A DNA stretch of 64,000 nucleotides from Paenibacillaceae bacterium (GTDB taxonomy: Bacteria; Bacillota; Clostridia; Lachnospirales; Lachnospiraceae), in NCBI GenBank assembly GCA_015057705.1, contig SVDU01000003.1, forward strand, positions 186,001-250,000. Reading direction: 5' to 3'. Made by a program: the position numbers and the translations under genes. How positions within the stretch are numbered: the first letter of the stretch is position 1; every line of letters begins with the position of its first letter. The notes below the pieces were generated by a model that worked only from the letters and a program-made list of their open reading frames with translations, was not told where the DNA came from and made no database searches. Shown here piece after piece: positions 48,132 to 51,473 of this stretch.

Positions 48132-48320
48132 TTATTCTTGATAAATATCTAAATGCTCAATAACAACTCGTCGTTCAGGAATCGTCGTTATCACTTCTAT
48201 CAGATATTCTCTTGGAATAATCATTCTCTTATTATCCCTCGCCGTGTCCTCATTGAGAACAGAACAATGAGAGATTTCACACTCCAACCCAAGAATTTTT
48301 CGAAACATTTTTGTTTTCAT
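48132..48320 (-). CDS. 62-residue hypothetical protein downstream of agrBD
   Basis: Not recognised. The protein is polar and charged, with two cysteines (C14, C19) near the N-terminus, a middle segment NKRMIIPREYLIEVITTIPE and an acidic end. AGGAG lies 9 bases before the ATG, which favours a real gene. It lies on the same strand as agrB and agrD, about 195 bases downstream, and ends at a strong terminator. A regulatory or peptide role in the agr locus is possible but not shown. Confidence 0.5.
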   Translation of the reverse strand: MKTKMFRKILGLECEISHCSVLNEDTARDNKRMIIPREYLIEVITTIPERRVVIEHLDIYQE

Positions 48321-48515: not shown

Positions 48516-48665
48516 TTAGTTATTCTTTGCCTCGGCTTCATGTTTCTTCAGCACCGCTTTTGGTATTTCTCTTTCATACATAGTTGCTGGAATGCTTTTT
48601 CCAACAGAATTAACAGATACCGTAAGCAATACCTTTTGTAATCCTTCAACAATTTTCTTCTTCAT
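48516..48665 (-). CDS. agrD: AgrD-like cyclic peptide precursor (49 residues, no cysteine)
   Basis: Starts inside the last codons of agrB with AAAGGAG upstream. The peptide has a basic amphipathic N-terminus (MKKKIVEGLQKVLLTVSVN), a core candidate SIPATMY at 24-30 and a charged C-terminal part EREIPKAVLKKHEAE with the conserved acidic residue and P35 expected after the AgrB cleavage site. There is no cysteine, so any ring would be a lactone through S24 (or S20, T28). This layout fits cyclic lactone autoinducer precursors, and the agrB overlap supports it. Confidence 0.75.
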   Translation of the reverse strand: MKKKIVEGLQKVLLTVSVNSVGKSIPATMYEREIPKAVLKKHEAEAKNN

Positions 48666-49233
48666 TTTTGTAATCTCCTTTCATAACATCTTTATTTGGA
48701 GGAAGTAAGGTTAAAACTTCCAAAGTAACCGGATAAATGATCAACTCTCTTAGATTCTCATTGTAAATAGCGATCAATGCCAAAAGGGTCAACAATAAAA
48801 TCGATACAACTTTTTTCTTTAATATTGCTGTATGGGTAAAGTAAGTAATATTTTTGCTTTTAGGTACCAGACATATAAATATAGTCAGGCTAAACAAATA
48901 AATTGCAAGTACATTTAATAAGTTTAATTTAAGTACAACCGCTCCCGATAATGACAAAAGCCAGATTATCAACATACCTAAAAAGCAGCCTGCATTTGTT
49001 TTTGCATGTATTCCACCAGCCTGCAAGCGAAGAGTGCAAAATACAAATAAAACAATAAAGGTTTCAACTCCCTTACCTAATAAAATACCAAGTAATTGAA
49101 TGAATAAAAGTTTTAATAAATTATCTAATATCAGTTCAACTCCGTATTGTATTGTAATATTATCATCCTCATCTCTGGGATTGATCTTATTTAACAAACA
49201 ACATAGAGCTGCTGAAAATCTCGAAATAATCAC
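48646..49233 (-). CDS. agrB: AgrB-like peptide-processing membrane protease
   Basis: AgrB cuts and cyclises the AgrD precursor in the membrane. Counting from the GTG at 49233 (195 residues), the catalytic pair is H76 in QAGGIHAKTNAGC and C83, matching H77/C84 of Staphylococcus aureus AgrB. Five or six hydrophobic segments are visible. The GTG follows GGTGG by 7 bases and matches the family N-terminus; an in-frame ATG at 49257 lacks a ribosome site. The C-terminus overlaps agrD by 20 bases. Confidence 0.9.
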   Translation of the reverse strand: MIISRFSAALCCLLNKINPRDEDDNITIQYGVELILDNLLKLLFIQLLGILLGKGVETFIVLFVFCTLRLQAGGIHAKTNAGCFLGMLIIWLLSLSGAVVLKLNLLNVLAIYLFSLTIFICLVPKSKNITYFTHTAILKKKVVSILLLTLLALIAIYNENLRELIIYPVTLEVLTLLPPNKDVMKGDYKNEEENC

Positions 49234-49351
49234 TTTATCACCACCAAACAATGCCATTTTACCATAAATTCCAACTTACAAATGTTTTTGCAATTAACGT
49301 AGTTTTTTTATTCCTGAGCGTCAATTTCTTAACTTTTAAATACAATTTCAC

Positions 49352-49380
49352 TTTACTTTTTACCATAGGAATTGTAGAAT
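49352..49380 (+). promoter_or_regulatory. Promoter of the agrC/agrA-like genes
   Basis: TTTACT (49352-49357), 17-base spacer and TAGAAT (49375-49380), 30 bases before ATG 49411. AACTTTT at 49331-49337 and TACTTTT at 49354-49360 form a loose direct repeat spaced 23 bases that could be a LytTR regulator site; this is weak. Confidence 0.45.
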
Positions 49381-49410
49381 AATAGTACCCGGCAGATGAG
49401 GTGGCATAAT

Positions 49411-50736
49411 ATGACTTACTTAATTTATTCTCTTACAGGAAGCCTTTGCAGTTATTTTTCATGCGTTAATTTACTTCCTCATAAACTAAACGTTTATAAG
49501 AAATTGACTTTGTTTTTATACTCATTCATGACAGTTTATCTGTTCAATCGAATGTTTGGGCAAATCAGTACTTTTTTAACTTATGGAGGAATATTGATTA
49601 TAGCGATGATATTTTCAAAATTTGATTTTTTTGCTTCCTCCTGCATTCTTTTTGGTTACATATATTCAGTCACATTCAATTATATTATTATGTGGCTGAC
49701 TGGCTATTTTCTTCGTATGGATATGGCAGAATTATTAGTCCGGGATAATCTGACAATTATATTTTCCATACTTTACTGCATATTTTGCGGTGTAACTACT
49801 AAAATGCTGGGTTGGTTTTTTCATAAAAAGCTGAATTTGTCCAATTATTTAACCAATCGTCATCTTTTAAAGGCCATCTTTACTGACCTTTTTATTTTAG
49901 TTTTCTTTTATATTTTTAATTTTTCATACGGTGAGCAATTAGGATACAATTATGGTGTAATTGCCCTGAACGGGATACTGTTTTTACTGCTGTTTACAAT
50001 CACTGTTTTTTTAATGTACTCCATTTATAAAGCAACTATGGGGGAACAGGCTTATAAGCACCGAATGTCTCAATTTGAAAATCTTAGGACTTACACTGAC
50101 CGACTTGAAATGTCTTACGGTACCATGCGAAAATTCAAGCATGATTACATGAATATTCTTATAACAATGTCAGGGTTTATGGAAGAAAATGATCTGCAGG
50201 GATTAAAAGAATATTATGGAGAAAAAATTATTCCAATCAGTCACGCTTTCACAGAATCAGATACGAAACTTGGCACTTTATCAAATATAAAGGACACTGC
50301 TTTAAAAAGCCTTCTCTCCTCAAAATTTATTTATTCTATGGAAACAGGAATAAAAGCAGAAATTGAGTTAACAGAACCTATTACAAATTTGTATATGGAT
50401 TCTCTTGATTTATCCCGTATCATTGGCATTTTTTTGGATAATGCCATTGAGGCAACTGGGGAAACAGTTGAAAAAGAGTTGCATTTTTGCATGTTTTATA
50501 AGGAAGACAATCTTTATATTATTATTAAGAATACTGCTCTCCCTCCTGATTATTCTTTATATGAGCTTCGAGAACAGGGGATATCAACAAAAGGGGAGAA
50601 CAGAGGCGTCGGTCTGTACAATGTTTCCAAGGTACTGAATCATTATGATAATGTAGTATGGAACACAGTTTATAAAGAACCATATTTTACTCAGGAACTG
50701 ATTCTGATGCATTATGGTAACAAGGAGCAGGTATGA
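49411..50736 (+). CDS. AgrC-like sensor histidine kinase (GHKL)
   Basis: Membrane sensor expected to detect the mature AgrD peptide. The 441-residue protein has six or so hydrophobic segments in residues 1-210, then a dimerisation helix with the phosphorylated histidine H244 in KFKHDYMNIL, the N box IFLDNAIEATGE (N344) and the G box KGENRGVGLYNVSKVL (about 394-409), the HATPase_c_5 type found in AgrC-like kinases. ATG 49411 has AGGTGG 6 bases upstream. It overlaps the response regulator by four bases. Confidence 0.9.
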   Translation: MTYLIYSLTGSLCSYFSCVNLLPHKLNVYKKLTLFLYSFMTVYLFNRMFGQISTFLTYGGILIIAMIFSKFDFFASSCILFGYIYSVTFNYIIMWLTGYFLRMDMAELLVRDNLTIIFSILYCIFCGVTTKMLGWFFHKKLNLSNYLTNRHLLKAIFTDLFILVFFYIFNFSYGEQLGYNYGVIALNGILFLLLFTITVFLMYSIYKATMGEQAYKHRMSQFENLRTYTDRLEMSYGTMRKFKHDYMNILITMSGFMEENDLQGLKEYYGEKIIPISHAFTESDTKLGTLSNIKDTALKSLLSSKFIYSMETGIKAEIELTEPITNLYMDSLDLSRIIGIFLDNAIEATGETVEKELHFCMFYKEDNLYIIIKNTALPPDYSLYELREQGISTKGENRGVGLYNVSKVLNHYDNVVWNTVYKEPYFTQELILMHYGNKEQV

Positions 50737-51473
50737 TTCATATATATCTTTGCGAAGATGATAAAAGACAATTATTACGCTGGACATCAATTATAGAAAA
50801 ATACTTATTAATGAACTCAACGGAGTCGCTGCTGTATTGCACTGCATCTTCTCCCGATGATTTGCTAACGGTCAGAAAAGATTCTAATATTACCGGACTG
50901 TATTTTCTGGATATTGATTTAAGAGCGAAAAAGAATGGAATTGAATTAGCAGAAGAAATCCGCAAATATGATCCCCGTGGATATATTGTATTTGTAACAA
51001 CACATAGTGAAATGGCATATCTGACCTTCCAATACAAAGTAGAAGCCATGGACTTCATAGTAAAGGATAAAATAAGTGATCTTCCGGAACAGATCTATTC
51101 CTGCATAAGAAATGCGGAAACAAAATACCGGAATCAATTAGATTCATCTGACCGTCTTTTATCCATTAAGGTCGATAAAGCTTCACTGGTTATGGATCAG
51201 GATGATATCGTTGCCATAACTACAAGTGAAGAATACCACAAAATAGTTATCCATACACTAAATGGTTTCCGTCAGATGTCTGGTTCTCTTAAAGAACTGA
51301 GTGCATCTTTGAACTCCCATTTTTGTCAGTGCAACAGATCCACAATTGTGAATTTGAATCATGTGATTAAATATTCAAGAGATGAGGCACTTTTGTACAT
51401 GAATAATAAGGAATCTTATTCTGTATCTGTTCGGTTGTTGTCTAAAGTACATAAATCACTAAAATGCTTGTAA
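50733..51473 (+). CDS. LytTR-family response regulator (AgrA-like)
   Basis: Partner of the AgrC-like kinase. The 246-residue protein has a receiver domain with acidic pocket CEDD (7-10), phosphorylation site D60 in YFLDIDLRAKKNG and K in VKDK, and a C-terminal LytTR DNA-binding domain (about 143-246) with IVAITTSEEYHKI and FCQCNRSTIVNLNHVI. It likely activates the divergent agrB-agrD genes. A hairpin terminator follows the stop. Confidence 0.92.
   Translation: MIHIYLCEDDKRQLLRWTSIIEKYLLMNSTESLLYCTASSPDDLLTVRKDSNITGLYFLDIDLRAKKNGIELAEEIRKYDPRGYIVFVTTHSEMAYLTFQYKVEAMDFIVKDKISDLPEQIYSCIRNAETKYRNQLDSSDRLLSIKVDKASLVMDQDDIVAITTSEEYHKIVIHTLNGFRQMSGSLKELSASLNSHFCQCNRSTIVNLNHVIKYSRDEALLYMNNKESYSVSVRLLSKVHKSLKCL

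Follow-up and report, generated by a model that had tools for sequence, protein, structure and literature searches.

A Lacrimispora-type agr locus with a cysteine-free AgrD and a predicted six-residue serine lactone

Gene content of the agr locus

An agr-type quorum-sensing circuit, consisting of agrB, agrD, a GHKL sensor kinase and a LytTR response regulator, lies at positions 48516–51473 of the window, as we call the whole 64,000-nucleotide stretch of contig SVDU01000003.1 that was analyzed. The genome is of the Lacrimispora type (Lacrimispora is a genus within the Lachnospiraceae), the nearest named records being four Lacrimispora and one metagenome-assembled genome labelled Hungatella. The features of the circuit are:

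48516..48665, minus strand: agrD, cysteine-free autoinducer precursor of 49 amino acids
48579..48596, minus strand: agrD codons S24–M29 (SIPATM), predicted six-residue lactone ring, with S24 as putative nucleophile and cleavage expected after M29
48646..49233, minus strand: agrB, membrane peptidase/cyclase (preferred GTG start at 49233; first ATG at 49257)
49293..49321, minus strand: AgrA/LytTR-like tandem repeat upstream of agrB, ACG-centered blocks 21 bases apart
49396..50736, plus strand: agrC-like GHKL sensor kinase
50733..51473, plus strand: agrA-like LytTR response regulator

A first-pass annotation of this DNA had placed an agr-type locus of four open reading frames (ORFs) here, and profile searches bore this out. 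AgrB scored 88 bits against Pfam PF04647 (cut-off 23), the kinase 51.6 bits against the GHKL family PF14501 (cut-off 22), and the regulator 57.3 bits against LytTR, PF04397 (22.6), and 41.9 bits against Response_reg, PF00072 (30.2); the divergent kinase and regulator described in that annotation therefore stand, and may complete a self-contained circuit as it proposed. With the NCBIfam models for AgrC (NF046015) and AgrA (NF046049), the two proteins reached 201 and 170 bits, below the respective equivalog cut-offs of 500 and 400. The gene-level features of an agr system are present in the locus, namely an AgrB with its catalytic pair, a small precursor of the AgrD type, and a GHKL kinase with a LytTR regulator.

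Counted from the first ATG, the agrB ORF (48646–49257, minus strand) encodes 203 amino acids and the catalytic pair is H84/C91; both residues are unchanged in 122/122 aligned AgrBs. The pair had been reported earlier as H76/C83, which is correct as to its retention and fits a start at the GTG at codon 9, though not the numbering from the first ATG. Upstream regions could be read in 19 of 23 genus members, 14 of them with an ATG at, or no more than 3 bases from, the place of this GTG and 5, those of the window and its nearest relatives, with GTG; because most have an ATG at that place, the GTG is the better start. AgrB of the window type was found in 25/25 genus members and, at E ≤ 1e-10, as a weak match in 3/120 other related genomes. 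Searches of 72,556 plasmid records at E ≤ 1e-5 and of the PDB at E ≤ 10 returned no match to AgrB.

The tandem repeat ahead of agrB is conserved: ACG-N18-ACG was present in 22/23 genus regions (two of the 25 loci were left out as truncated), and the remaining region has GCG in block 2. The ACG-centered blocks resemble AgrA-type repeats. When the own genome was searched for a wider regulon with this repeat, allowing up to 2 mismatches, the agrB promoter was the sole match; reversing the pattern as a control yielded 3 matches, which leaves the search with little to tell about boxes that have diverged.

AgrD and the position of its nucleophile

The agrD and agrB ORFs share 20 bases of overlap, and the Shine-Dalgarno sequence AAAGGAGA lies ahead of agrD. 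The encoded peptide shows a leader, a core and a charged, proline-containing tail; none of its 49 residues is cysteine, so that the core lacks the cysteine of thiolactone autoinducing peptides (AIPs) and a thiolactone cannot be formed, as had been noted at the outset. No match was found in Pfam, and the NCBIfam AgrD model TIGR04223 gave a weak match of 16.1 bits that nevertheless covered all 38 model positions. In a scan of the genus with the same model (E ≤ 1), five window-type AgrDs appeared at 14.1–15.7 bits and the other twenty were not listed. As all fall below the cut-off, inventories built on TIGR04223 would miss the genus AgrDs of this type.

Conservation was assessed in 145 related genomes, 25 of them genus members. 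Loss of the ORF was looked for in relatives that keep agrB, and in all 25 genus genomes the AgrB was followed by a short ORF with a cysteine-free core and the motif S-[IF]-P-[AV]-x-[MIV]-Y-E-R-[KE]-I-P. Across 19 distinct peptides that were aligned, M1, Q10, S17, S20, S24, P26, Y30, E31, R32, I34, P35 and V38 are invariant. Among 38 codons in 24 distinct agrD sequences, 36 third, 22 first and 16 second positions vary, and mean dN (nonsynonymous divergence) was 0.147 against a mean dS (synonymous divergence) of 1.25, a ratio of ∼0.12 that is only rough because dS is near saturation (180/276 pairs gave usable values). The codon-position pattern and this ratio indicate translation of the peptide and purifying selection on it; on these comparisons, the ORF first proposed as an AgrD precursor is a real gene.

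A second, cysteine-bearing AgrD serving the window AgrB was also sought. The own genome encodes three AgrBs and two AgrDs above the TIGR04223 cut-off, both with cysteine, and each of the latter sits no more than 3 kb from a separate AgrB of its own. In the genus, another AgrB occurs within 4.5 kb of 75/77 above-cut-off AgrDs. The remaining two, in G020 and G001, have no window-type AgrB nearby, and none of the 77 lies within 45 kb of one on the same contig (some contigs being short). The candidate was therefore rejected.

To place the ring, AgrDs were collected from 150 genomes of the family, in which AgrB was found at 100 places in 58 genomes. An iterated AgrD profile was run on 104 loci, a few of them from other searches; 25 gave no AgrD. 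The alignment had 77 rows, some of them weak, from which 4 were removed: two loci present in duplicate, a spurious row and one that lacks the tail residue. Cys or Ser stands exactly five residues ahead of the conserved tail [HYFG][EQ]...P (position −5) in 62 of the remaining 73 (44 Cys, 18 Ser). By class, 44 have Cys at −5, 17 Ser at −5, 3 Cys at −6 (one of which has Ser at −5 too), 6 Ser at −6, and 3 are other; 14/73 lack cysteine altogether, so that peptides of this kind are not uncommon in the family. The register of −5 fits the five-residue rings, such as [CLWFT], [CFMFV] and [STGFF], listed in a review table (PMC12312760). In this register the window AgrD has I25 at −5 and S24 at −6 and belongs to the 6/73 with Ser at −6 and neither Cys nor Ser at −5. 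The window ring would accordingly end at M29, with I25 in the usual place of the nucleophile. Cys or Ser at −6 was found in 5/8 AgrDs lacking either residue at −5 versus 8/61 having one (Fisher p 0.0046, for classes defined post hoc), a comparison made without the window, L005, which is the other row from the own genome, and two rows found by profile.

Relatives of the AgrB supplied a comparison at the S24 column. In a tree of 122 AgrBs, a single clade (100/99) unites the 25 proteins of the genus. The wider group around them held, beyond the genus, four AgrBs with Ser(−6) AgrDs, G185, and five for which no AgrD was found at first. Before larger flanks were fetched, it was set down that these five loci should show Ser at −6 while lacking Cys at −5. 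All five proved to have an AgrD, with Ser at −6 in four: G184 (GKS-VVVGV), G049 (QKS-PICGL) and G161 (GKS-TSIFY), with V, P and T at −5, and G146 (AS-SLAGL), with Ser at both positions. The most telling of the five on alignment is G221 (GK-C-MVPGL), in which Cys replaces Ser exactly in the S24 column and Met stands at −5. Non-genus clade members found through AgrB thus carry Ser (8) or Cys (1) at −6 in 9/9 cases, two of them with an additional Cys or Ser at −5; a tenth member, G474, came from the peptide profile. Six Ser(−6) AgrDs in all were added by peptide profiles (G329, G474, G250, G243, G275 and G316). Over all AgrDs of the window type (25 genus, 15 others), the −6 residue is Ser in 39/40 and Cys in 1/40.

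Because Ser or Cys occupies −6 throughout the clade and Cys is swapped in on the S24 column, the nucleophile is probably S24, and a ring of the six residues S24–M29 (SIPATM) is the most likely. The first-pass annotation had likewise favored S24; its ring SIPATMY now gives way to one ending at M29, and its further candidates S20 and T28 are poor ones. T28 varies within the genus and is not favored as nucleophile, nor is S20, where several relatives have Ala or Thr.

Several observations weigh against this assignment or against the agr reading as a whole. The window AgrD does not reach the TIGR04223 cut-off of 19 bits. The wider AgrB group has a support of 90/95 with a bootstrap that had not settled. 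The written prediction of Ser at −6 fails in the letter for G221. Of the 15 non-genus AgrDs, 6 were found only by profiles that already held Ser at that column, which is a bias, and the AgrBs of these, G474 excepted, are absent from the tree (G329 shows none of at least 120 amino acids). Five-residue rings are possible in the same AgrB clade, since Cys stands at −5 next to Ser at −6 in G185 and Ser fills both places in G146. Cysteines fall inside the ring stretch in G153 (C39) and G049. Finally, S17 and S20 are as invariant in the genus as S24.

Outside the family, 20 of 391 genomes sampled across the class matched the clade profile at E ≤ 0.01. They gave 22 loci, of which 3 were chance matches to long proteins and 19 were readable (L238 and L241 by eye); these AgrDs, found with a profile of this same register, have Cys at −6 in 10, Cys at −5 in 5 and Ser at −5 in 4. 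Six-residue Cys rings consequently look common in other Clostridia, and the Ser form, with Ser at −6 alone in 0/19, seems within the genomes searched to be restricted to this group. The Cys(−6) AgrDs in other families of the class are those of L227, L229, L230, L234, L236, L239 and L242–L245, and three more occur in other clades of the window's own family (L157, L167 and L170); all of them are predicted to give six-residue thiolactones.

The proposed signal and its alternatives

Taken together, we consider it probable that the locus is an agr-type quorum-sensing circuit whose signal is a serine lactone closed by S24. The catalytic Cys of AgrB would cleave AgrD after M29 and keep the core as a thioester. 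S24, which lies one residue ahead of the place of the Cys in most family AgrDs, would attack this thioester through its hydroxyl to give a six-residue (19-atom) lactone, S-I-P-A-T-M. A second protease would trim off the N-terminal leader, with a short tail probably retained. The exported peptide would bind the divergently encoded kinase, which would phosphorylate the LytTR regulator, and binding of the latter to the tandem repeat before agrB would raise agrBD transcription. In Staphylococcus aureus, AgrD is cut between M32 and D33, and D33 and E34 are reported as essential for cleavage (PMC10196373); in the 19 aligned genus AgrDs, E31 and P35 of the tail are invariant, as is S24.

A different ring from the same precursor is improbable. 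Either S24 could close a seven-residue ring ending at Y30 (SIPATMY) or S20 a ring of ten residues, and Y30 and S20 are both invariant in the 19 genus peptides. Y30, however, aligns with the first post-ring residue of the 73 family AgrDs, 62 of which have Cys or Ser exactly at −5, and S20 is replaced by Ala or Thr in several relatives, whereas the S24 column is Ser or Cys in 40/40 AgrDs of this type.

We give equally little weight to a lactone that would rearrange by an O-to-N acyl shift, making head-to-tail cyclo(SIPATM) the real signal. There is precedent in a report on Listeria, in which an AIP without a tail undergoes an S-to-N shift and its lactone analogue an O-to-N shift (PMC11297923). 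For the window peptide this would demand a leader cut exactly before S24, and the conserved stretch ahead of that residue (S20, mostly NSVG[KR]) rather suggests that a tail is retained.

It is similarly doubtful that AgrB merely cleaves AgrD to release a linear peptide as the signal. The absence of Cys and the weaker nucleophilicity of Ser would favor such a product, but Ser or Cys at one column in 40/40 AgrDs, together with the Cys of G221, is hard to explain unless a nucleophile is placed there, and Ser lactones are known in Staphylococcus pseudintermedius and Enterococcus faecalis. A decaying agr remnant left after loss of the Cys, which a match to agrB in two pieces in genus genome G023 might suggest, is very improbable given that agrB and agrD are kept in 25/25 genomes with low dN/dS and intact catalytic residues.

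The six-residue S24 lactone predicts an exact signal structure, with Pro at ring position 3, common to a whole genus of anaerobes. It suggests how nucleophile and ring size may change while the catalytic residues of AgrB stay, and relatives that differ by Cys or Ser could be compared, as a natural pair, to learn what determines ring size.

Neighboring elements and comparison with known systems

A further conserved gene lies downstream of agrD:

48132..48320, minus strand: orf62, conserved protein of 62 amino acids, possible fifth gene of the cassette

It was matched in 25/25 genus agr loci (in two tandem copies in L023), mostly preceded by the Shine-Dalgarno-like AGGAGA, and its C terminus reads IIPxEYxIEVITTIPER. 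There is one match in the own genome, no match in Pfam or NCBIfam, and none at E ≤ 0.1 in thirteen other agr loci (two from paralogous systems in the own genome, eleven from the AgrB group). A fifth agr gene or an output of the circuit are possible roles. Between agrD and orf62, 16 genus loci (L013 at 2308–2318, L016, L017, L020, L028 and others) carry a CCGGTATGAGT...GAAAAAGC element, the CCGGTATGAGT part of which appears a single time in each of these loci and at no other place among the loci fetched. The element was not found at the window locus, and neither it nor the agrD–orf62 gap had a convincing Rfam match. One possibility is a small RNA or a regulatory element that the closest relatives of the window have lost.

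When larger flanks were read at eleven loci of the AgrB group, an ORF of kinase size and one for a regulator were seen close by; these assignments were made by eye, from ORF length and N-terminal residues, rather than by profile. At L182 (G329), agrD, kinase and regulator occur with no AgrB ORF of at least 120 amino acids within 8 kb, an orphan or broken system. Outside the genus, ORFs that by eye resemble secreted proteins, lipoproteins and ABC permeases follow the agr genes in L183, L187–L190 and L192 and are possible outputs; the Lacrimispora agr locus, which sits between putative rqcH and ilvA genes, has no such ORFs. Elsewhere in the window, a flavin mononucleotide (FMN) riboswitch was found at 1091–1205 on the minus strand (114.5 bits).

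We see about even chances that these systems make up a separate Lachnospiraceae autoinducer class, that is, six-residue Ser lactones made by an AgrB clade of their own, in which the nucleophile sits one residue upstream of the usual and thereby freed position and still switches between Ser and Cys. Such a class would be core to Lacrimispora, where it falls below the standard AgrD model and would have orf62 as partner or output.

Cyclic-lactone-autoinducer clusters called by antiSMASH have been reported in Lacrimispora, with five in L. brassicae and a common occurrence across the genus (PMC11316579). These concern the same genus and kind of locus; the accessible part of that report does not state AgrD sequence, Ser or ring size, nor whether the window locus is included. 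No report of a six-residue Ser-lactone AIP was found in the literature searched, most subscription journals being outside its reach. The kind of system is known, and the six-residue Ser-lactone variant, with its ring as a prediction, looks new.

Four described systems come close. In the S. pseudintermedius agr system (AIP RIPT[STGFF]), Ser replaces Cys as nucleophile, as proposed for the window, but its ring has five residues with Ser at the usual place, whereas the window Ser lies one residue earlier and a six-residue ring is predicted. Clostridioides difficile agr2 (listed as NSA[SSWVA]) and the Ser(−5) AgrDs of the family share the Ser nucleophile proposed for the window and the same kind of C-terminal tail; unlike the window, they have Ser at −5 and a five-residue ring. 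The E. faecalis Fsr peptide GBAP (QN[SPNIFGQWM]) is a Ser lactone with Pro soon after the Ser and Met ending the ring, as predicted for the window peptide, although its ring comprises nine residues. The agr system of Clostridium acetobutylicum (AIP [CVLVTL]) has the six-residue ring that is predicted for the window, a ring also predicted with Cys in relatives of C. acetobutylicum, and like the window has separate agrBD and agrCA operons; its ring is closed by Cys as a thiolactone, whereas a Ser lactone is predicted here.

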